DNA from: Amoebophrya sp. AT5.2
Taxonomy: Eukaryota; Sar; Dinophyceae; Syndiniales; Amoebophryaceae
Assembly: GCA_005223375.1 (NCBI GenBank)
Contig: RXOD01005503.1
Span: forward strand, 1 to 13,728
Direction: 5' to 3'
DNA: 13,728 bases
The translations under genes were made by a program, and so were the position numbers. A model generated the notes under the pieces. That model did no database searches, was not told where the DNA came from, and was given only the letters and a program-made list of their open reading frames with translations. Below are positions 1,518-13,728 of the stretch, in pieces (positions within the stretch are counted from its first letter, which is position 1; the number at the start of each line of letters is the position of its first letter).

Positions 1518-2644
1518 TCACTCCTGTCCCCCGCCGTCGACCCCTCCTGGGGCGACGCTCTCCAGCAGGCCCATTTTTACTCGCGTGAGCTCTTCCTCCT
1601 TCGCCGCGATCGTGCCCGCCAGCAGCAGGTTCACGGCGAAGAGGACGGCTGCGAAGCACACAAACACCGCCGCGTACGAGCCGGCGGCTAGATCGACCAG
1701 CATCCCCGTCGAGGTGTACAGAAACGTGCCGGCGTGCTTCGCGGCGAGAAACGCCAGGTTCTGCGTCCACAGCAGGCCCGCGAGGTAGCGGCTGCGGCTG
1801 TTCCCCGCCATCACCGAGAGCGCGTTCGGCGACACGAACCGCGTGACGAGTAGCGGCGGCAGCACTAGCTGCACGGCGAGACAGAGCCCCAGGGAGAGGG
1901 CGTACGCGTTGAGCAGCAGCTTCAGCGGGTACGTGGCGAAGAGAAAGGGCAGAAACAGGTTGGCGGAAAACAGGTTGTTGCCCACGTCGGAGTAGATGCG
2001 GGAGATGAGGTAGTGTCCCTCGTCGGTTATCCTGTAAAGCAAAACGCAGCCGAGAAGCGCGGCGAAAAGAAGGAGGTAGGCGAAGGACGACGTGAAGGCG
2101 TACGAAAGCTTCGAGTCGTCCGTGAGCGGCTGGGGGGCGCTGTGGAATCGATTCGCAAAGTACTTCAAGTTGAACCTGATTTGGCAGGAGGAAGAAACCG
2201 ACTGTCTTGAACAGTATACCTCAGCATGGGATTCCCCAGTGGCCGCAGGTCTTCCCGGAAGGGGTTGTAGACGACGTAGAGCTCTTTCGTGACGAATCCC
2301 GCGCCGAAGAAAAACAAAGTCGCCCAGCCGGACCAGAAAAAGCATGCCAACACGTACGTCAAGCGAGCGCCAGACCCGGAACGCGGGATCAAAATATTTG
2401 TTGGCGAGAGGGATGAGGAGGCGGCGGCCTGCATTTGTTGTTTCAGGAGCGGCGTATTTTCAAAAACCAAGCTATCATATAGCTGCTGTCGCTGTGCATA
2501 ATGACAAGACAGACCGCCCGCTTTACTGCGAGGGAACATCAAATACTCTCGTCGCAAGTCGGGTGCAGATGAGCAGCACCAAAAATCTCAAAAAAAAATT
2601 GTTTACACTTCTCGATTTGTGCGTGTCATCCTTGCGCAGGGGCC

Positions 2645-2676
<32 letters not shown>

Positions 2677-4123
2677 ACGGATGACTCCCGAAGGAGATCC
2701 GACACTAATGCCGCGCGCTACGGTTGTGTCTTTAGAATAAGACTGCGAAATAGGATTTGAGAGAACTCAGACGGCATTTCACTGCAAAAAGTATACGTCT
2801 TTGCACACCAATTGTCCTCCAGAGAGGGCCCCTATCCTACGGCCCTGCGTGCTCATTTACCTAGAATATCCTACCTCGAGAGAAGCCCCAGCATTTGCTT
2901 CTTCCGTAGCCACAAAAATGAACCAGCTGTCCCGCCACTGAGCACAGCGCTCCCTTCTCCCTGCTCTGTTGCCAGCCTGGGGCGATGCGGGATTCATTAT
3001 CAACCAGGACATAATAGCTTGCGCCGCGCTGCCCTTGCCAACTGCGATCTTGGAAAGGACTGATTCGTTATCTACGCAGGAACACAGCACGAGCCAGGCC
3101 TTGGAAAAAGACTACGAAATAAAGTTTGGGGGAACATTAAACCCCGTTACTTCCAGCTCTATGCAAGAATGGCGGCATTTTTGAGTATGGCCACTATTAA
3201 TTTGGGCGTTATCTTGTCTTCCCCATTCGCCATGCCGTGGCGCAAATTAAACAGAATTGCGAATGCGTGAGCACTACATACTTGCATTTCCAATTTTAAC
3301 ACTAAGAATTGGTAGGTACTGCTGCGTCCTTGTGTTGGCACAGCTGCGGCACTCGGGCTAGGAGAGAGAGGCTCGTTGCCAGCACGCAGATCACCGGACA
3401 CACCAGGTGGAACGCGAACTTGAAGTCCACACACATCCCAAGGCACTTTTTGCCCGCGACGTAGTGCTCCGCCCAGGAGAGGTTCGTGATCTGTAGCGCG
3501 AACAGCACTCCTACGACCTCCAGGCCGCCCGCGATGCTGAACAGCTTACCGTACCTGTCTTGCCCGTTTCCCTGCCCCGCCCTCTGTATCAGCAAGACTC
3601 CCGCAAGCCGGCCGGTCTGGAGCCCGGCGAAAAGGAGCGCCGCCGGGTAGTAGCCGGGCGCCTGGCCGAGAAGGAACGACCCGGTCAACGTCACGCACGC
3701 GGAGAACGCGAGCACGCGCTTCGTCTCCACATAGTCGAGGAGCACGCCGGCCAGCGGTATGGCGAAAATTCCCACGAAGAACGGGAGCGAGAGCAGCTGT
3801 AGTGTCATTCTTCGTCGTAATTTTCGCCGCTCACAGCGTCGTAGTGTCGGTGGAGGATTCATTCATTGTGAGTAAAAGCATCGCAAAGAAAACACAAAAC
3901 ACTCTCTCGAGAATCAAGGGCATCGATGCCTCGAAAGCAGTACGTCGTCTGTGGTGGTCGTTTCCGCGGCCGGTGTGAGCGATCGCTGGTACTTGAGAAT
4001 TTCTCCTGCATACTGGAAGTAGCAGCCCTCGAGCAAGCCCACTGCGAGAAAAGAGCAGGCGATGCGCAGCAGATCCACTACCCCCAGCGGGTCAACCACC
4101 ACAGCCACAATCCTGTTCGACAT
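1518..4123 (-). CDS. 12-TM major facilitator superfamily transporter, four exons
   Basis: Proposed exons are 3944-4123, 3320-3796, 2220-2491 and 1518-2175, totalling 1587 nt with phases that agree (528 residues). The first half has six hydrophobic helices at residues of about 15-36, 61-83, 88-106, 110-130, 144-165 and 183-207. [13 protein letters not shown] between helices 2 and 3 fits MFS motif A (G-x-L-x-D-R-x-G-R-R). After a ~50-residue polar central loop, six more helices follow, the usual MFS 6+6 layout. The best-supported junction is a 44-nt GT-AG intron at 2176-2219, joining NPMLR to FNLKYFAN. The other two junctions are reasoned from frame and motif. Substrate is unknown; an SLC43/ApiAT-like amino-acid carrier is only a guess. 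The ATG at 4123 is the first in frame after a TGA at 4229-4231. The alternative is two separate six-helix genes, the second starting at an ATG at 2539. A U6 gene lies in the second intron. Confidence 0.6.
2176..2219 (-). other. 44-nt GT-AG intron of transporter gene
   Basis: On the minus strand the sequence reads AG^GTATAC, a pyrimidine-rich middle, then AATCAG^GTTC. Removing it joins two frames in phase 2 and restores continuity between a hydrophobic N-terminal part and the downstream helices. Without removal, the upstream frame stops about 18 codons on. Confidence 0.8.
2590..2598 (-). terminator. Pol III T-run terminator of U6
   Basis: Nine consecutive T on the minus strand directly follow the U6 3' sequence AGTGTAAACAA. 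This is the standard RNA polymerase III stop signal and gives the oligo-U tail to which Lsm2-8 binds. Confidence 0.85.
2594..2700 (-). ncRNA. U6 spliceosomal snRNA
   Basis: The minus strand contains the U6 core almost base for base as known from animals to protists: AAAATTGGAACGATACAGAG, then AAGATTAGCATGGCCCCTGC and GCAAGGATGACACGCA. The ACAGAGA box (5' splice-site pairing, about 2655-2661) and the AGC triad with the internal stem-loop region are intact. A 5' hairpin CTCC-TTCG-GGAG begins near 2697 and is extended by GGAT/ATCC pairing, so the 5' end is probably close to 2700. The 3' end runs into an uninterrupted T tract, as expected of RNA polymerase III transcripts. Human U6 uses a different 5' stem sequence, so the conservation is functional rather than contamination. 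It lies about 50 bases upstream of the transporter's second-half reading frame and on the same strand. Confidence 0.96.
2731..2740 (-). promoter_or_regulatory. TATA-like element upstream of U6
   Basis: The minus strand reads TTATTCTAAA about 30-40 bases before the presumed U6 start. This is where external (type 3) pol III promoters place a TATA box. The match is imperfect and no proximal sequence element could be identified. Confidence 0.3.
3797..3943 (-). other. Inferred 147-nt intron of transporter gene
   Basis: Donor GACGAC^GTACTG and acceptor CTACAG^CTGCTC, both phase 0. The intron removes an in-frame TGA and joins helix 1 ([16 protein letters not shown]) to helix 2 ([17 protein letters not shown]). 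The exact sites are inferred; another nearby pair could be used. Confidence 0.5.
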
Positions 4124-4834: not shown

Positions 4835-5614
4835 CTATCCGCGTCCTAGGAGCCTTAGCAGCGGTTTGAAGGTGGCGGCGACGAGGAGGAAGCGCGGCAC
4901 CTCGAGCGCTTCGTTCAGGAGAAAGGAGACCAGCACTCGCACCCAGAACCCGTCCACGCGAAATGATCCGGCATTTGTTCCTTCTTCCTTCGTGGCAGCT
5001 TCCGGCAGTCTGCTTGCCAGTGCTTCCGGCAGCTCTAGCCCGACCGCCTCCAGCACGACAAGCGGGTCCGGCAGAAGCTTCATCTCGAAGAGCAGCAGAA
5101 TGCCCCCCCACATGCCGAAGTACGCGGTACCGTAGATGACAATGAAGGGGGTCCCGTACTCCTGGAAAAAACCCATGAAGCGCGCGAAAAAACCGCCCTT
5201 CTTCTCCGTCTTCGTCACGCGCTGCTCCAGCTCGGTAAATCGCTGCTCCAGCGAGTCCAGTCGGGCAGCGGTGGGGGGCGACGCTTCTGTAACGTTCGTG
5301 GAGGTGGAAGAAGATGACGCGGAGCTCAAGCTGGCGCTGGAGGCCGGTGGGTGTGGCGTGCTAGTCGGTGATGAGGTGGACGATGAGGTTGATGAAAAAC
5401 AGACTCGGCTAGCCGCATCGCTTCTCATGCGAAAGAACGCGGCGCAGGGGTGCCCTGAGCGCGGTGGTGGCTGGAAGGCGGGAAGCGCGCGCAGCATGGT
5501 TTTCGGCGTTGGTATTGGCTGCATCCGGGACGAAAAGGGCGCTTGGGGGCGGACGTCTCTCGTCCGTTGGGCGAAAGGGGGCGTCCGCTGAAATCGAGGC
5601 CGGACGCGAATCAT
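4835..5614 (-). CDS. FAM210/DUF1279-domain mitochondrial protein
   Basis: Single exon of 259 codons from ATG 5614 to TAG at 4835-4837. The first ~85 residues are rich in R, S and P with almost no acid, typical of a mitochondrial presequence; in-frame ATGs at 5524 and 5497 are alternative starts. A Ser/Thr/Pro-rich tract follows, then a predicted coiled coil at about residues 118-139 (RLDSLEQRFTELEQRVTKTE). The C-terminal part, residues 145-257, fits DUF1279: FFQEYGTPFIVIYGTAYFG starts the first membrane helix, and a second amphipathic segment ends RFLLVAATFKPLLRLLGRG, matching the family's R-x(6-8)-P-x-x-R-x-L-G tail. Human FAM210A/B are inner-membrane proteins linked to mitochondrial translation and metabolism; the role here is inferred from that. 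No regulatory signal is apparent upstream. Confidence 0.75.
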   Translation of the reverse strand: MIRVRPRFQRTPPFAQRTRDVRPQAPFSSRMQPIPTPKTMLRALPAFQPPPRSGHPCAAFFRMRSDAASRVCFSSTSSSTSSPTSTPHPPASSASLSSASSSSTSTNVTEASPPTAARLDSLEQRFTELEQRVTKTEKKGGFFARFMGFFQEYGTPFIVIYGTAYFGMWGGILLLFEMKLLPDPLVVLEAVGLELPEALASRLPEAATKEEGTNAGSFRVDGFWVRVLVSFLLNEALEVPRFLLVAATFKPLLRLLGRG

Positions 5615-6384
5615 TCTGTGGCTATGACTGTAACTTTGCGAGCAAGTCCTCGCGCGAAGTCCTCTCAATTAATGTGGTGAAGCATGCAGCTGTATGGGTA
5701 CGTCTGAGGATGCAATTCCGTGCGCAAAAGATAGCGTCTACAACATGTTGTGGTGTCCAAAAGATATACAACTTACAATGGCTAAGGCTAGTACAGGAAC
5801 TCAACAGGCGTGCTCGTCCCTGCCTGCGTCTCGCGTTTCACGACCAGATCTTATCCACGACAGAATTCTGCACTTTTTTTTTTGTGTTTTTCTACAGACA
5901 AATCCGCCTTTTCATCGATCAAGGAGGAGCATGGTCCTCGGACTGGTGTTTCGTCTTGATCTCCTGGCTCTTCCGAACAAACTACTCGAGGAGTCACAGT
6001 CAGGACACACACAGAGAGTGGACATGCACCTGTGCGAGCTGCAGACACAAATGACGCCTGCAGCTCGCTCGCACAGGTGCATGTCCTTTCAAATAGAGTG
6101 AGAGTGATAGCTCGAGCTCCAGGCGCGGGCCAGGAAGAGTTCATTCAAATCAAATGCGGTGGAATGAGCAGCTTTCGCCTGAGCAACAGATGAAAAAGGA
6201 CAGATCGCAACGTTCTTCAGATGAATTTTGATAGAAATCCGGAAATTGCAAGGACTCGTTGTCGTTTAGCGTGGCGGTGAGCAACCGCGCCTCGCCACGC
6301 CGTCAGTCACTCATCGGAGAAACCAAGATAAAAACTCTACCTGGTGGAGCTATTCCATTATTTGGGACCAACTTGTTTGGCTCG
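5615..6384. other. Intergenic with T tract and hairpin, no gene
   Basis: This stretch lies between the polymerase gene's stop and the FAM210-like start, so it should hold the 3' UTR of one and the promoter of the other. Its marked features are a 10-T run at 5874-5883 followed by TTTTTCTACAG on the plus strand, which resembles a splice acceptor, and the inverted repeat at 6020-6086. Plus-strand frames at 5464-6054 and 5694-6101 overlap each other and lack any recognisable domain. Confidence 0.45.
6020..6086. repeat. Strong inverted repeat (25-bp stem, 13-nt loop)
   Basis: Arm 1 is 6020-6044 and arm 2 is 6058-6086. All 25 bases of arm 1 pair with arm 2 without mismatch except for a 4-base bulge (a second CTCG) in arm 2. 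The loop is 13 bases. It lies about 300 bases beyond the polymerase gene's stop codon and 400 bases before the FAM210-like start. It could be an RNA hairpin in the 3' UTR, a 3'-end or small-RNA precursor signal, or a relic of a tiny inverted-repeat element. No target-site duplication was evident. Confidence 0.9.
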
Positions 6385-9300
6385 CTAGTATAGGACAAAC
6401 TGGGCAAGCGCAAGCTCCGTCTCCCAAATCTTTTCGGATTCCGCGACGATGCGGCGCCAACTTTTCCCGAGAAAGCTGTTACTCTGGCCTACATTCGTAG
6501 TCTTGTTTGCGGCTCTGGCGTTTCCTTTGTACCACAAATACCACTTCGGCCGCCTCTCAGGTGCCTCTCTACAATTTTCGACGTCTCCGCATCTTCCGCT
6601 AGCACCTTTCATCCCCGCGGCCCCCTTGTCGCCCCCGGCCGCACGGGCGCGCTCATTCAACACGCTCCAGCACGCGAGTGCTTCTGGTGAGTTCTTCTTG
6701 CTTTGCAGCCAGTGCTTACAAAACTCCCGTGTTAGTTTCCTGTCCACCGCGAGTTCGCAAAGGACCCCGAACTCCTGTGCGAGGGGGTCCGCCACACCGC
6801 ACTCGTCGGCCCGGCAAAGCCATGCAGTGTCGCAACGGGGTAGAAGAGCCGCATTCCGAACTTCGTCCAGAATCTCCCGAATGATGCCCCCTTGGATTTG
6901 TGACGGGATGCCGTTGACGTGGCTTCTGGTGTCCTCTACAACCGGACACGCAGGCCCGCTGGTGCGATTCAACATGTGCTTGCTGTGCATCCTTCGCAGG
7001 TCACCGACGAAGGGGGGGTCATCCAGAACAGGACTGATCAGGCGTAGCAAGTCGTCATCCCTGGTGTGATGTGCCTTTTTTCCGGTACGAAATCAAAAAA
7101 ATCAAGCGAAAGAATGCGGGCTTGCCGCGAGGCCGGAACACGTACACGAACATCATACCAAAGTAAAGTACTTCTTCATCGTTACGCGAACATCATACCA
7201 TAGTGGTAGTAAAGCTACGAAAGTCAAAGTAAAGAAGCATGCAATACTCAAACACGAGCGGGGCATCTCCATCCGCATCCATGCCAGCGTGGTAGTCAAA
7301 TACCCAGCGGCCGTTTCTCGTCTTTGCCGGCATGATCAGAATATTGTCGTGCGCGTAACCGTATTCACCGCCGAAACGAGCTTCCACGTCGTCTTTGCTG
7401 AGCGCCCGGTAGCGTTGGAAATTTGTCGGCAGCTTCGCCGGATTCTTCATCACGCCGATGGTGCCGTTGAAGTATTCGCCATTGCGCTCTGGTATAAAGT
7501 GATCATGGAACAAACATAAAACAAATGGATAAAATGGCGCGTCATTTCTTGAAGAGGTATTTATTGAAATTAAATTTGCACTTTAAGCAGCTCCTTGCAC
7601 TTGATGAGCTTACTTTGTTAAGCTTCAGTATAAGTTTGGGAACCGAGATGAAAAATTACGATCTCGATCGTGCCGGTGACGCTACTTTTTTACAAAAGAG
7701 GAACTCACGTAGGTCGACGACCACTTCAATCATCCAAAGGTCATTGACTAAGTTAGTTGTAGATTATCTGGAAATAGCACCACAGCCTGTTCCTCTCCTC
7801 CAGCTCCAGCTCCAGCTCCAGCTCGTCAAGCATCAAGAGTTTGGTTTCTAAAACTAAGGCAAGCTCATCGAATGAAACGAAAATGAAAATAAAATAAAAG
7901 AATCTTTAGCTCCTGAGCGAAGCTGCCTGCGTCAGTCTTAATAAACATAAACTTAAAAGTTCGTAGTAAAGAGTTCGAGTAAAAAGTACTCCATATGACT
8001 CTATCTGGCGGTAGCGTCTGGGTCATGTCGGGTGCAACGCGCGGCCGGTAGGCTTTTTTCGCCAACGGGACGGGCGCGAACTTCTTGACCCCCGGCATGA
8101 AAATCATTCCACACCAAATTTTTGTCGCGGCGTCGAAAGCTTCGCGCGTGCTTCCGTTGTCGAGCAAGCGCAGACCCCTTTCTGCGTCACCGGCGTAGTT
8201 TTCCGGATATCGCTTACTTCGGCGCAGCTTGGTCCAGTCCTCCAGTTTTGATCGCAAGTTACCCCGCTCCCGCAGGCTCAGAGCGGCGTCTTCCGCTGCT
8301 GCCCGTGCGCGCTCCCGCAGCTTCTTCAGCAGAAGACTCTCAAGGGCCTCGAGTCTGCCGCACTGTTTCGCGAGACCCCCCAGAACCAGCACCATCTCCC
8401 AGGGTATTGCGTAGTCATCTTTCAGCCTTATGGACGCGAACTGAACAAAGCACGCGCGGATCCGCCGCGCCGGCTCCGAGAGCGAAGCAAAATCCGTGAC
8501 GGGAAACTTCTGCACCGACTGCGGCAGATTGATCCACAGCGCGTTCGCGTCCACCCCCCGGTTGATCAGGCAGCCCGCTTTGGCATTGGCAAACCGCATT
8601 TGCACGAAGGACACATCGTCTCCCTTTGTCTCCCCGAACAGGTACTTCGCTAGCCCGAGACTCATCTCGGCCGCGCCGTCCGACACCAGCATGTTTCTGT
8701 TTCCATTCACGTCCAAGTCCAGCCGATCTCCCGCTTCCCGCCGGTAGATGGGGTGGAGGGGGTTGCCGCTCCAGATCGCGGTTGCTGAAACCACACTTGG
8801 CATCGACTGCGCTTCCGACAACGCCAGCCGCACTCGCGAAATCAATTTGTTTTGCGACAGGAGTTTGTCCACCGCCGCGCGCGAGAAAAAAAGCGTTTCG
8901 TAAAGCTGCTCGACGGCAACAGGCTCCAGGCCAGGACCAGACTCCGCAAAAAAGCAGACACTGCAGGAGCCGAAGGCGTTGCGGTTGCTGGCGGGTGCGG
9001 TCAGTTCTATTTCCTTGTGCCTTCTGGCGAAAAACGCTGCCGCGGAGTTGGAGCAGCTACTCCCAGCGTTCTTGGACAGCGTCTCGTGCACGAAGGGGTC
9101 CTCTACGCTGTTGTCGTCCTTGAGCGAGAGGCACCGTGTGTAGACCACGCCGTTGAAACTTACCTTGCCCACAAGGGAAATTTCTTCAGGACGGAGCGGA
9201 ACCACCACAAACCGGTCGCTGCCGTACATGGCGAGAAGGTGGCGGCTGTTGTTCTTGCTACACAGCGAGGCTCGGATAGGGCGGACAGGACGGGGGAAGC

Positions 9301-12300
9301 TGTTGCAGGTGCCGCTCAAAGAAGATTGCGGCCCGCTAGTGCTGGGCGGCTGCTCCTGGTCCTGCTGCAGCTCCATGTGCACGAGGACGGTCGAAGGCGA
9401 AGCATCGTAAAGCCTTTGCACACCACTCGTTTTGAGAATAGGAGCGGACGAACTAGATCTAGAACCAGCTGCAGCGGCAGCGGCCGCAGCGGCAGAGATC
9501 GCATCGACAAAACTAACCCACCTGCTCTTGATGTCGCTGGAGGTCTGGCCATTTGAGCCTGCTGCCGCACCGCTCGTGGTCGTGAAGCACGAATTTGGAG
9601 TCCCACTGAAGGTTGAGGCTGAGCTCGTCAGGTTGAGCAGGTTGTCACGATGTCCTCCTGCAGAAGTAGAAGACCACTGTCCACAGGCGATGGTGCTCGA
9701 CGTAGGCTCCAGCAAGCTGCTCCAATCCGACAAGTGATCCTCTACGTCGGAAGTTGATGCTCCCCGGTTATGGCCTCCGATGTTGGCAAAGCCTGGAGCT
9801 TGTTCTGCTTCACTGTCGCTTAGAGCGAAGGTGTCGTCAGGAACTGCGCCAATAATGTTGTTCACGCTCGCGCTGATCGCACTGACACTTCCCGTGGATT
9901 CTTCGGGATTCGTGGTTGCTGAAGAAGCGCGTCCTGGACCACACCAGACATGATCTGAGAGATCAGGGCGCCACTCGGATCCGGTTTCCGGTGGTTTTGC
10001 TTGTTGGTGCTGCTGTTCTTCGTAGTCTCGCGGCAAGCTGTCCTGAAACCACGTCGTGGAAGAGAACTCCGTGCTTGGGGCTTGCGTCGACGAGCCGCGA
10101 GCATCCCCTCGCATGCCAGACCCAGAACCCGGACTGATGAGCTGCGCACTTGCTATTGCGTGCGGCCGAGCTGCCTTTATCCCAGACCCATTCGTCCCTG
10201 TAGTACCCACGTTAGCGGACGGAGTGGGCGCGGAGTTGTAGCCGGGTTCACGATCACGATCACCACCGTTCAAGACGTTTCCCACCGCGGCAGCTCCTCG
10301 GTGCCGCAGCCCGCCGTCTGTTGAGAGCGTGGCGGCTTGAACTGCTGCCGAGGAAGAATTGCCTGGAAAACCTCCGCAACTGCTGCCTTGCGAGGTGGAG
10401 GCCGACTGCGCTTGTCCAGCGCCGCCGCTGCCGCCATCTCCTTGCAGGGAGCGGGACTGCGTAAAGCGCCTCCACATCGAGTTGTTCGGGTCGTTAGGCG
10501 AATTCCACGGCTGAATGATGCTCTGCGCGTGCTGCCCGAACGGCTTCAGCACGGGCGACATGGGCGCAAACATTAAATTCTCGATCGCCTTGTCGAAGCT
10601 GGTCTGGAATCGGCGATGCCACTCGCCCATCTCTTTTTTAACCCCCACCTTGTAGAGGTAGTTTTCGCTGATGCTGACGGAGATGCGCCACTCCGTCTCG
10701 GAACACTCCGTAATCTTCAATTTCGCGAGTTCCATCTGCCCCCGCGTCCGCACTTTCTCTGGTAGCAGTTCTCCCTCTGGTAAGATCTCGTGCCGCGTCA
10801 CGGCAACCGGCCGCAGGATGCTACCGTTCGCCCCGGGAACGCGATCGCGAAGAGACCAATTGACGTGCGTTCGCTGAGGAGCCGCGTCGGCGTTGTGCAC
10901 GCGCCAGTCCCGCCACTGGATCTTGTGGTCAACCTCCCGCACGAGACCAATCACCGTGTCCGATTCGAACAGGGTTAGATCACGATAGTCGACGAAAAGT
11001 CCAACTGCGTCTGCCGCCCCCTCCTCATCCCGCATAGGCGCGTAAACCGTGTAGGTGAGGGGCGATTTCGTGTCCGAAGCGCGTCTTTCTGCGGCAACCG
11101 AAACCGCGAAAAGCAGGCGGTCCAGCGGGATTCTGTAGATGGTCGCAAGGCGGCGAACTGCGGTCAGCACCGGGCCACACAAGCGCAGCTCGCGTGCCCC
11201 TGCGCGCGACCATTGGCTCTTGAAAAAGTATCCCGATTCTACCGGCGAACCGTAGTAGGCATGGAATCCGCGTAGGGACGTCCGAGAAGAGTTTTTAGTC
11301 GCGGTGTCCGCGCCCCCTAGCGTGGCAAAGAGCCGTCGTTGCAGGATTTGCGGTCCGTCATGGCCGGCGTGGGGGCCACGTCGACCAGGGGCAACACTCT
11401 TCGGCAACACACCCCGTGAAGGTTGAGTCAAGCCGAACGGGGTCTCGTAGAAGGCGAACAGGTCCGCAGCGATGATTTGGATTGTTGTTGGGTCGGCGAT
11501 CGCATGGATGGCGGACAAAGCGATGAACTCTCTGACTCTGTCTTTTTCTCCTGCTCCCTCCCCCGCCACTTGCACCACCGCCACCTGCAGCGGTGCCCTG
11601 GCCTGCTTTGCGAGCTTGGACTCGAGTAGATCTAGATACGTGCTGCTGTTGCTGCTGCTGCTGGCGTGCCCGCTGTCCTCGCCTATTATCCTCCCCGAGT
11701 GGTCGGATTTTGCGGACGTTTTCCCTCGTCGCAAAGACCCTTCGAATTCGCGTATGGAAGAGAAAGGGATGGTGGCGGCCACGAGCGATTTCGTGCGATC
11801 ATATGCTGCTTCCGGCACCGCCAGCGGAGTAATCCGGAGTACGGGCCACGATTGCTGCCAGACGCCGCTCAGCCACCCGAAGGACTGCGCAGTCGAAGCT
11901 GCGTTACTCACAAATCGAAGGTACGCGGCCCCGTCGTCCAAGCGCGCACTGTTGTTGATTGAAGAATTTCTATATTTGCGACTACGTTCATCTTCTGGCT
12001 CTGGTTCTTTCCGTCCTTCTGAAGCTGTTCGTCCACTCGAAAGGAAGCTCCGTACAAAGTACAGTGAAAATCCATGTTTGAACATGATCCAACCATCGTC
12101 AAAACAGTGATCACGTTCACGATTCTGATCGAGTGACAGTGAAACACGGTTGTTTTAGAGAAATTTGAGTAAAGTACTTACCCGAGAAGAGGGTGCTTCT
12201 GCAGCACGCGGGCAATCGCTTCGCTGAGCCGCTGTTCGTTAATCTTCGCTTCTCCCTTCACTTCGTACATGTAAATGCCCATCGGTTTGCAGTGACCAAA

Positions 12301-13728
12301 GGTGAACCAGGCGGCGACATCGGCATGCTCGCTTTCTCTTTCCGCAGTACAAGACCCAGCCGTGGTTTGTCGGATCAGTTGCCCGTAGCCGCTCCGGGGT
12401 GTCGCAGCCTGTGCCTTGGTGGTCGCTTGGTGTCCTTGGGCACACTTGAGCTCGAGCAGGTCGACGACCTCGCCGACGCTCTGGCACTGCAAAAACGGAC
12501 CCGTGGGCAGCTCGCAATCCAACCGCGAATTGAATTCCTGCAGCAGGCCCATCTTGTCCAAACTGTCGAGGTGTGAAATCGATGTATCGGAGTGTAGATT
12601 CTCCGCCGTGCAGAGCCAGGGGCGTAGTATTGCGATGGCGATGTCGCGCGTCACGCTCGAGACCGGCAGGCCTGCAGTTTGCCCGTCCTGCCTCCGCGTC
12701 GTGGTGAGCCCCTCAGTGCCGCGCAAGAAAATCTCGATCTGGTCGCACCTGCGCGGTGTGTGAAACAGTTTCCCCGTGCCTTCCTTGTCCAAGTAGTATT
12801 GCTCGAATTCCCGCGTTTCGGTCAACTGCGGTGAAGTCGCGGAGTCAACACCTTCAGAATCTGACGCGTCATCCTCAGCGTTCCTCGTGCGGAGAACTAA
12901 TGCCCAGACAGACTTGAAGAAGCCACGCAACTTCGCACGCAGCGGCGTCCTGGAAATGGAAAGCAGGATGGAGATGAAGCTAAAGACGAGTAGATTTAAT
13001 GTTGCGAATTGCGATCCTCGTGGAATTGTGAGGTAGATGAAACAGGTACTACGTTGTAGTACCACCCCCGCTTGCTTGTAGTTTCGTCGATCGCCACAAT
13101 CTGCCAGTACACTCGCACCCAGCTTCGGTTTCCCCAACCGAAAAAGAGCAAGAGGAACGTAAAAGCCTTCACCGCCCGCAATATGTAGACGAGCTGCAGC
13201 GCAGGGCCGCGCGTGTCGACTTCTGGCGCGCCAAGAGGCACATGAAGGAAGCCAGCGAGGGTTTCGCTTTCCCTGAGCCGTCGCGCGTGCGTTGCAGACG
13301 AAACGCCAGACGAAAAGACAACCGTGCCCCAGAATAGAAAGGCATGGCCCAGTCTTCGAAAGCAGCTCTGTGCGGGGGCGCTTCCAGTCGTCCATCTGCA
13401 CAGCTCTGCACGCAGGTACGGATCGCACTCCTCGGACCACGTGGAACGCAACACCCATCTGTGCAGCAGCGGCACAAGCACGAATACGAAAAAGAAGTCC
13501 ACGGTGACGTCCAGCAGCACCGCGTGGAGCTCGTTCGCGACGTACGCATACAACGCAAACAGCACGGCGGCAGGAACCACAAGCCGGTGGAAAAACAGGT
13601 ACCAGTACGCTGCTTTCACGCGGGGCTGCCAGAAGCGCCGCGCATCTTTGGTCTTGCTATTTGTACGAGCCGGCGCAGCCTCCCGGCTCTCGTGCTTTTC
13701 GTATTGCGTGGTTGCTTTATCGGTTTCG
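6385..13728 (-). CDS. Membrane-ACP-condensation-RNA-dependent RNA polymerase fusion (5' partial)
   Basis: Five exons are proposed: 13063-13728 (open to the window edge), 12182-12979, 7990-11948, 7248-7488 and 6385-7060. They total 2112 codons plus a TAG at 6385-6387, and all four junction phases agree. In order, the protein has four or five membrane helices, a carrier protein with a phosphopantetheine-serine motif, an NRPS-type condensation domain, a low-complexity Ser/Gly/Ala linker, and a cellular RdRP of the RDR/QDE-1 class. RdRPs of this class turn single-stranded RNA into double-stranded RNA for RNA interference. NRPS carrier and condensation domains join thioester-bound acyl or aminoacyl groups. 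I know of no described protein that combines them. The continuous frame across the linker is read directly; the domain names come from motif matching by eye; a joint function is speculation. The alternatives are two products from one locus by an internal promoter or alternative splicing. The start lies outside the window, where an adenylation domain would be expected if this is an NRPS-like module. Confidence 0.65.
7061..7247 (-). other. 187-nt intron between DxDGD exon and last exon
   Basis: Donor TTTGA^GTATTG, acceptor CACACCAG^GGAT, phase 2. Splicing gives DADGDAPLVFE-DDDLLRLISPVL, exactly the spacing seen in the family between DLDGD and the following W-D-x-x-L. Unspliced, the upstream frame ends after 18 codons of unrelated sequence. 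Confidence 0.75.
7143..7200. repeat. Direct repeat of 18 bp, 40-bp period, inside intron
   Basis: 7143-7160 and 7183-7200 match at 17 of 18 bases (core CGAACATCATACCA identical). AGTAAAG follows each copy closely. The pair sits within the 187-nt intron of the polymerase gene, near its donor end. Confidence 0.85.
7489..7989 (-). other. 501-nt intron within the polymerase domain
   Basis: Donor TATGGA^GTACTT, acceptor CTTTATACCAG^AGCG, phase 1. Splicing gives PPDRVIWK-RNGEYFNGTIGV, leading straight into the polymerase motif with KNP. The upstream frame otherwise continues into lysine/phenylalanine-rich sequence of intron type. The intron is A+T-rich compared with the exons and contains a short CTCCAG tandem repeat. 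Confidence 0.65.
7798..7824. repeat. CTCCAG hexanucleotide microsatellite
   Basis: Four perfect CTCCAG units plus a partial unit in the 501-nt intron. The number of units is likely to vary between strains. Confidence 0.9.
9300..10560 (-). other. Low-complexity Ser/Gly/Ala/Thr linker in the fusion ORF
   Basis: About 420 residues with no stop in the frame, rich in S, G, T, A, N and Q. It includes a nine-alanine run (codons 9467-9493), a SRSSSS tract and Q/E/P clusters. There is no recognisable domain, and it is probably disordered. Short charged islands such as SDSEAEQAPGF and DVEDHLSDWSSLLEP could be binding motifs. That it stays open for 1.26 kb argues it is translated, and it physically joins the condensation and polymerase parts. 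Confidence 0.7.
10560..12360 (-). other. NRPS-type condensation domain
   Basis: The N-terminal motif INEQRLSEAIARVLQKHPLL fits L-x-x-A-L-x-x-V-x-x-R-H-P-x-L. It is split by the 233-nt intron and continues GARLDDGAAYLRF. The active-site motif HHxxxDG appears as IHAIADP, with the catalytic second His (codon 11504-11506) and the structural Asp (11492-11494) kept, the first His replaced by Ile and Gly by Pro. It is followed by TIQIIAADLFAFYE, the usual helix. Further on, SPLTYTVYAPMRDEEGAADA then VGLFVDYRDLTLF matches the domain's R-x(4)-E-x-x-G-x-F-x-N segment. The end, YKVGVKKEMGEWHRRFQTSF, matches the closing helices. The domain looks complete. Other HxxxD acyltransferases share this fold, so the substrate is open. 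Confidence 0.7.
11949..12181 (-). other. 233-nt GT-AG intron inside condensation domain
   Basis: Donor CTCGG^GTAAGT is fully canonical; acceptor is AACAACAG^TGCG; phase 2. The junction reads QKHPLLG-ARLDDGAAYLRF, continuous with the condensation-domain N-terminal strand-helix. This is the strongest evidence that the carrier-protein exon and the long 4-kb exon belong to one transcript. Confidence 0.85.
12445..12690 (-). other. Acyl/peptidyl carrier protein (PP-binding) domain
   Basis: The translation ISHLDSLDKMGLLQEFNSRL, followed by a CELPTGPFLQCQSVGEVVDLLE stretch, has the carrier-protein pattern: D-S-L with the phosphopantetheine-accepting serine, a second helix, 'LP' before a helix, then S/T-V-x-(E/D)-L. 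The serine codon is at 12562-12564. Upstream ITRDIAIAILRPWL-type residues would form helix 1. A phosphopantetheinyl transferase encoded elsewhere would be needed to activate it. Confidence 0.75.
12960..13640 (-). other. Multi-helix membrane region of the fusion protein
   Basis: Hydrophobic segments include LVVPAAVLFALYAYVANEL, VTVDFFFVFVLVPLL, LGHAFLFWGTVVFSSGV and ALQLVYILRAVKAFTFLLLF, with FISILLSIS after the 83-nt intron. A basic and charged stretch (ARTNSKTKDARRFW) precedes the first helix. The region would anchor the downstream carrier and condensation domains at a membrane. Bacterial poly-lysine-type synthetases also mix membrane helices with carrier and condensation-like domains, but I see no specific sequence match to them. 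Confidence 0.65.
12980..13062 (-). other. 83-nt intron after the membrane helices
   Basis: Donor GGGGTG^GTACTA and acceptor CTCGTCTTTAG^CTTC with a pyrimidine tract; phase 2. It is the only donor/acceptor pair found that joins the two open frames without a stop. Acceptor AG at CATTTCCAG, slightly further on, is also in phase. Confidence 0.6.

Follow-up and report, generated by a model that had tools for sequence, protein, structure and literature searches.

Does a single gene of Amoebophrya sp. AT5.2 encode both an acyl-transfer module of the peptide synthetase type and a cellular RNA-dependent RNA polymerase (RdRP)? This question was raised by a sequence-only reading of the window, i.e. of the whole stretch of DNA that was analyzed, which is the entire contig C1707 (13728 bases) of a draft assembly of 50.7 Mb in 2759 contigs. 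A single open spliced frame had been proposed, and such a frame was indeed recovered, with carrier and condensation-like domains, a cellular-type RdRP and hydrophobic segments upstream. We consider it about two-thirds probable that the locus is a real nuclear dinoflagellate gene for one long, membrane-anchored, bifunctional protein, and that this protein is a true fusion, the halves of which work independently. The genome is assigned to a dinoflagellate, probably near the parasitic Amoebophrya/Syndiniales group, in agreement with the dinoflagellate spliced leader of 21 bases, which has 18 exact copies in the assembly (10 forward and 8 reverse; reversed control 0), and with the only significant protein relative, which is from Amoebophrya (see below).

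The gene is located on the minus strand and extends from the contig end to position 6385. The spliced model has 5 exons with 2101 codons plus the stop codon. The frame is still open at the contig end, after 13728 bases, showing that the 5'-part of the gene is lost. The predicted protein contains, in one open and phase-compatible spliced frame, hydrophobic (membrane) segments, a carrier, a condensation-like (HxxxD) acyltransferase, a linker of about 420 residues, and an RDR-class RdRP, and each of the predicted active parts has retained its key catalytic residues, i.e. the carrier serine, HxxxD, and DxDGD. The features are as follows, with P0001 denoting a protein of Amoebophrya sp. A25 and L002 another RdRP of the same genome:

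13066..13727, minus strand: exon 1, open at the 5'-end, linker and membrane segment (Kyte-Doolittle scan; BLASTP to A25 P0001 starting at residue 69)
12950..13065, minus strand: inferred intron GTGGTA..CAG, exact ends uncertain, joins two frames that both match P0001
12182..12949, minus strand: exon 2, carrier (PP-binding) and N-terminal part of the condensation-like domain (PF00550, 20.2 bits; 32% to P0001 over 215 columns)
11949..12181, minus strand: intron GTAAGT..CAG, 233 nt, acceptor set by the P0001 alignment
7990..11948, minus strand: exon 3, 3959 nt, uninterrupted frame with the remainder of the condensation-like domain (ending at about 10540), the linker (about 10540-9268), and the N-terminal half of the RdRP (about 9268-7990) (P0001, 44% over 328 columns; PF05183)
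11489..11509, minus strand: condensation active-site motif IHAIADP (H625, D629), HAIAD identical in P0001
7489..7989, minus strand: intron GTACTT..CAG, 501 nt, BLASTP to the RdRP L002 spans the join
7248..7488, minus strand: exon 4, catalytic exon of the RdRP with MDADGD (PF05183, 12.6 bits for the frame alone; aspartates align to the other RdRPs of the genome)
7061..7247, minus strand: intron GTATTG..CAG, 187 nt, with a 14-nt direct repeat, phase-compatible
6385..7060, minus strand: exon 5, C-terminal part of the RdRP and stop codon (the PF05183 match ends in this exon)

The splicing model is supported by two independent homologies, namely the collinearity with the A25 protein and a spliced RdRP half that exceeds the Pfam cut-off. 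P0001 has 2176 aa and no assigned name, and it was the only significant protein relative when the region of the condensation (C) domain was used as a query (8000 candidates scored). Its last 669 residues are collinear with residues 69-805 of the window protein (265 of 754 columns identical, 35%, E=3e-102), and the alignment crosses the introns 13065-12950, around which it is gapped, and 12181-11949. The former intron is inferred because of a frame change at this position and the A25 alignment; it lies in the membrane part and is a fourth one, in addition to the three introns proposed before. Within exon 1, the segment 13392-13526 is 40% identical to residues 1507-1551 of P0001, and a Kyte-Doolittle scan of the spliced protein revealed hydrophobic stretches at residues 45-63, 70-88, and 179-197. 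The acceptor of the 12181-11949 intron was set by the pair HPLLGARLDDG (window) and HPLLRVRMDEG (A25). In a first splice model, an earlier acceptor was used for this intron; it produced a 33-residue insert in comparison to A25 and was replaced.

With these additions, the proposed exon structure was confirmed. One exon covers most of the condensation-like domain and the first half of the RdRP, and its length from 11948 to 7990 is exactly 3959 nt, without a stop codon. The upstream intron is of the canonical GTAAGT-AG type, and the DxDGD exon and the C-terminal exon each follow after one further intron (7989-7489 and 7247-7061, respectively). Repeats were observed in two of the introns, i.e. two copies of TGGTATGATGTTCG in 7247-7061 and a GAGCTG run in 7989-7489. 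Introns of Amoebophrya are known for repeated elements, as described in the A25/A120 paper (PMC7789003).

The acyl-transfer module was analyzed by comparison with P0001 and with domain profiles. The Pfam families that the sequence-only reading had named did not yield uniform results. For the RdRP, PF05183 clearly exceeded its cut-off (see below); the carrier scored 20.2 bits with PF00550 (18.4 bits in another cut of the sequence), just under the cut-off of 20.8 bits; and PF00668 did not match the window's own protein at all, neither in single frames nor in the spliced form, including a stretch recut from the corrected model. Also in the whole genome, PF00668 had 0 matches. An NCBIfam scan gave a single weak acyl carrier match of 11.6 of 92 bits. 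The carrier of P0001 is above the cut-off (24.5 bits), and the phosphopantetheine serine is present in an LDSL motif in both proteins (S350 in the window protein, codon 12564-12562).

For the C domain, P0001 reached 30.9 bits with PF00668 at a cut-off of 30.6 bits (model 117-294 of 456), and an A25 fragment of the same domain, which is 49% identical to that of the window, matched with E=1.6e-10. When a profile was built from the C domains of the window and A25, it retrieved one solved C-domain type II peptide synthetase with E=0.062, a match that is weak by itself, but in which the HxxxD is aligned (IHAIADP with HHTAADA of the solved protein). The exon-3 frame retrieved nothing better than E=2 from the solved structures, and the predicted structure of the C part had a mean pLDDT of 31.6, a confidence too low for use. 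Compared with the signature HHxxxDG, the motif IHAIADP has kept the catalytic histidine and aspartate, and the first histidine and the glycine are replaced. Because these two residues are not kept, the domain is best named condensation-like and should probably not be regarded as a canonical C domain. A complete condensation domain had been proposed. By homology this is correct, as the A25 relative is above the PF00668 cut-off, but PF00668 does not match the window's own domain, and its signature is degenerate.

The RdRP half was recognized with higher scores. When spliced, it reached 54.6 bits with PF05183 (cut-off 23.8 bits, E=1e-14, model 85-538), in agreement with the proposed assignment to the RDR/QDE-1 class, and the DxDGD motif is kept. 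The RdRP half has 754 aa, and model position 538 corresponds to its residue 645, within exon 5. The three frames singly gave no match, 12.6 bits, and no match, respectively, and the window contig was absent from the matches of a genome-wide six-frame search with PF05183. The RdRP of the window is detectable only once it is spliced. The catalytic MDADGD (D1867, D1869, and D1871; 7279-7265) is aligned to SDLDGD, GDMDGD, and GDYDGD of other RdRPs. Of the 8 RdRP loci of the genome, the 4 with the longest matches were used to build a profile; it matched the window protein with 32.9 bits, the DxDGD region being the strongest, and the first part of the match was weak (1.2 bits) but collinear. The best pairwise match was to L002 (29% over 138 columns, E=4e-12 in a single BLASTP comparison); it covers residues 1798-1918 in the numbering of the first model and thereby crosses the 7989-7489 join at 1829. 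For L001, the RdRP of the same genome that is close to solved RDR-type polymerases, and for L003 and L004, the best E values were 0.020, 0.002, and 1.3, respectively (BLASTP). An alignment of five RdRPs, including that of the window, contained 8 invariant columns, among them K1600 (AKAG) and G1568 (SDG).

Other searches with this half were negative. The L002 RdRP frame found itself and contig C680 in the genome, and not the window (5 candidates scored). A protein search with the RdRP half as the query returned nothing, and the same was true for a search with both halves; the latter also missed P0001, so both searches were insensitive and carry no information on absence. The predicted structure of the exon-3 RdRP part alone had a mean pLDDT of 41.8, also too low for use. 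Two pattern matches among viral contigs were found, and neither of them was a relative. In comparison to the cellular RdRPs of this family, e.g. plant RDR2 and Neurospora QDE-1, the RdRP of the window is similar in the matched part of the model and in its DxDGD triad, but it is divergent, and an acyl-transfer module and hydrophobic segments are attached to it.

Are the two halves really parts of one protein? The linker (about 10540-9268) is rich in Ser, Gly, and Ala. In the 1245 nt tested, the coding frame contains 0 stop codons, whereas the two other forward frames contain 8 and 14 and the three reverse frames 8, 8, and 22, and none of 2000 base shuffles was free of stop codons (mean 13.5 stops). 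The coding frame is the best of the six across the whole linker, but it is surpassed by a reverse frame in the last third. At the DNA level, the predicted join is thus well supported. P0001 is neutral in this respect, speaking neither for nor against a join of the condensation-like domain and the RdRP, because it stops inside its C domain.

The same region also bears on the possibility that the locus has two products, a synthetase and an RdRP, which would be separated by an internal spliced-leader acceptor or start codon, by alternative splicing, or by cleavage of the linker. The coding signal of the linker is weak, with a codon usage of 0.033 bits per codon versus 0.17 and 0.25 in the flanking domains, and in-frame Met codons are present at residues 968, 1089, 1335, and 1384. 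In addition, dinoflagellate mRNAs are trans-spliced, as stated in a study of dinoflagellate transcriptomes (PMC6027434), such that a separate RdRP message would easily be made. However, the stop-free 1245 nt between the halves, where shuffled sequences average 13.5 stops, argue for a continuous frame, and a separate synthetase would require a terminal exon in another frame. We therefore regard two products as unlikely, albeit as an alternative that deserves serious attention.

An artefact, i.e. a misassembled contig or a wrong assignment of the RdRP or the condensation-like domain, appears highly improbable. Admittedly, the assembly is a single draft of 2759 contigs, the C domain has no direct PF00668 match in the window, and both structure models were of low confidence (mean pLDDT 31.6 and 41.8). 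However, a misjoin would need to have occurred in frame within an open exon, the RdRP is well above the curated cut-off of PF05183, and the homology of the C domain runs via a 49% identical relative that is above its own cut-off.

The domain architecture of P0001 was compared with that of the window protein. The domains of P0001 above the Pfam cut-offs are SNF2-related, AMP-binding (PF00501), PP-binding (PF00550), and Condensation (PF00668). The stretch from the membrane part via the carrier to the condensation domain is collinear in both proteins, whereas P0001 has an SNF2-family helicase, followed by an AMP-binding domain, at its start, and its deposited model ends in the condensation domain, without an RdRP. 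In the A25 protein model, the helicase (residues 85-515) is fused to an AMP-binding/carrier/condensation module. A25 was the only outside relative, and a second species with a condensation-RdRP join was not among the relatives found. P0001 had 24 matches in the assembly, none of which was recognized as an A domain of the window gene. Contig C2294, which encodes a helicase 47% like P0001, was considered as a possible upstream piece and was set aside, as its frame ends at a stop codon and the AMP-binding region of P0001 has no listed match on this contig.

Further loci of the same genome contain similar parts. PF05183 had 9 matches in a six-frame search of the assembly. A second RdRP on contig C680 (L028:5015-7579 and 7708-9999) continues, via an inferred phase-0 intron, into a frame with a GT8 glycosyltransferase; the joint frame has no stop codon and yielded 111.3 bits with PF05183, up to model position 581 of 582, and 44.8 bits with PF01501. 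A paralogue of the acyl-transfer module is encoded on contig C1990 (L025:4784-7969 and L029). Like the window protein, it has several hydrophobic segments, a carrier-like part, and a condensation-like start, together with an AMP-binding domain (47.3 bits). Its carrier-condensation (T-C) part can be aligned to A25 and the window, with E values of 6e-8 and 9e-5, respectively. Unlike the window gene, it is cut by the contig end within the C domain, and its T-C frame had no Pfam match; as a query, this frame found only itself. The whole exon-3 frame of the window found, apart from itself, one match in its own genome (E=0.088). On contig C661 (L030), a frame of 3889 aa from 4780 matches the AMP-binding region of P0001 with its start, and by eye it resembles a large NRPS-like gene without a membrane part.

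The fusions bear on the meaning of the join. The fusion might have no function at all, with the RdRP half drifting, if this genome and its relatives often fuse neighbouring genes, a reading that overlaps with the preferred one. The RdRP-GT8 fusion on C680, the SNF2 fusion in P0001, the helicase contig C2294 without an A domain among the P0001 matches, and the divergence of the window's RdRP (29% to L002, its best match) all point in this direction. However, DxDGD, K1600, and G1568 are kept, and drift would not favour that. A fusion without meaning is therefore rather improbable in our view.

The preferred reading is a bifunctional, membrane-anchored fusion protein, and the simplest version of it is that the fusion co-localises two independent activities and would not involve a joint reaction. 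The domains and residues are observed in the predicted protein, and every functional step is inferred. From the A25 arrangement, an AMP-binding domain would be expected upstream of the contig end. It could load an amino acid or another carboxylic acid onto the phosphopantetheine of the carrier (S350), and at the membrane the HxxxD domain (H625/D629) might transfer the acid to an acceptor with an amine or hydroxyl group. RNA copying by the RdRP, which is attached via the long flexible linker, would proceed separately at the same membrane.

Alternatively, the two activities could be coupled. RNA that the RdRP makes or binds might be acylated or aminoacylated by the module, or the module might acylate partner proteins of the polymerase. 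The key residues are kept at both active sites, and in the A25 relative the SNF2 helicase lies beside the A-T-C module, so that both known members combine the module with a nucleic-acid enzyme. However, neither a substrate nor a specificity lends support to this proposal, SNF2 proteins are usually DNA translocases, and GT8, the fusion partner of the second RdRP, is unrelated. This RdRP-GT8 pair suggests that a fusion in this genome need not mean shared chemistry. Two explanations fit the RdRP-GT8 and SNF2 fusions, namely frequent and maybe functionally neutral fusions in this group, or a purposeful pairing of acyl-transfer and nucleic-acid enzymes, of which we prefer the former. Coupled chemistry is thus very improbable. 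The window protein, cut at its 5'-side, and P0001, cut at its 3'-side, might also be overlapping halves of an ancestral giant membrane-bound enzyme in the order SNF2 helicase, AMP-binding, membrane helices, carrier, condensation-like domain, and RdRP. The acyl-transfer module would then have a nucleic-acid motor on one side and an RNA polymerase on the other, and it could acylate RNA or nascent RNA-protein complexes. We regard this proposal as very doubtful.

The individual domains are known, and the combination is new as far as the literature was searched. Membrane-bound NRPS-like synthetases, i.e. poly-lysine and poly-ornithine synthetases, combine an A domain and a carrier with membrane helices and condensation-like domains in a single chain. 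Compared by description, the window protein differs in that the condensation-like domain occurs once, after a membrane segment and the carrier, and in that it is joined to an RdRP. No protein in which a cellular RdRP is combined with a thioester-based acyl-transfer module was found in the literature searched, mostly at the level of search results, and thus the sequence-only reading, to which no protein with both chemistries was known, was borne out within this scope. In the main text of the A25/A120 paper, the terms silencing, helicase, NRPS, polyketide, and nonribosomal are absent, and the two passages on polymerases concern other polymerases (PMC7789003). A protein with an RdRP domain has been reported in transcriptomes of two core dinoflagellates (PMC6027434).

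A role in RNA silencing was also considered. Six-frame searches of the genome yielded no match for Piwi (PF02171) or RNase III (PF00636), in a draft that may be incomplete and in which introns may split matches, as in the case of the window's own RdRP; the controls were positive in 1 and 8 of 14 control genomes, respectively. PAZ also had no match in the genome, and its control was silent too. The silencing reading is weakened because Piwi and RNase III matches are missing, but their absence is not firm in a draft assembly with introns. This raises the possibility that the RdRPs of these dinoflagellates, with no Argonaute or RNase III match detected, act outside the standard silencing setting. 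If the predicted protein is expressed as one chain, an RNA-copying enzyme would be placed at a membrane, and it could be tested concretely whether RNA is ever a target of peptide-synthetase-type chemistry.

The remainder of the window was also inspected. Downstream of the gene, minus-strand frames are present at 199-966, 1521-2459, 3305-3862, and 4838-5668, some of which are rich in hydrophobic segments by eye; no Pfam family exceeded its cut-off in these frames, and one weak MFS match was obtained (14 of 33.4 bits). No tRNA was found in the window. A U6 snRNA gene (106 bits; 2594-2699, minus strand) and an SRP RNA match (79.5 bits; 2920-3066, minus strand) lie close together, which fits a eukaryote.
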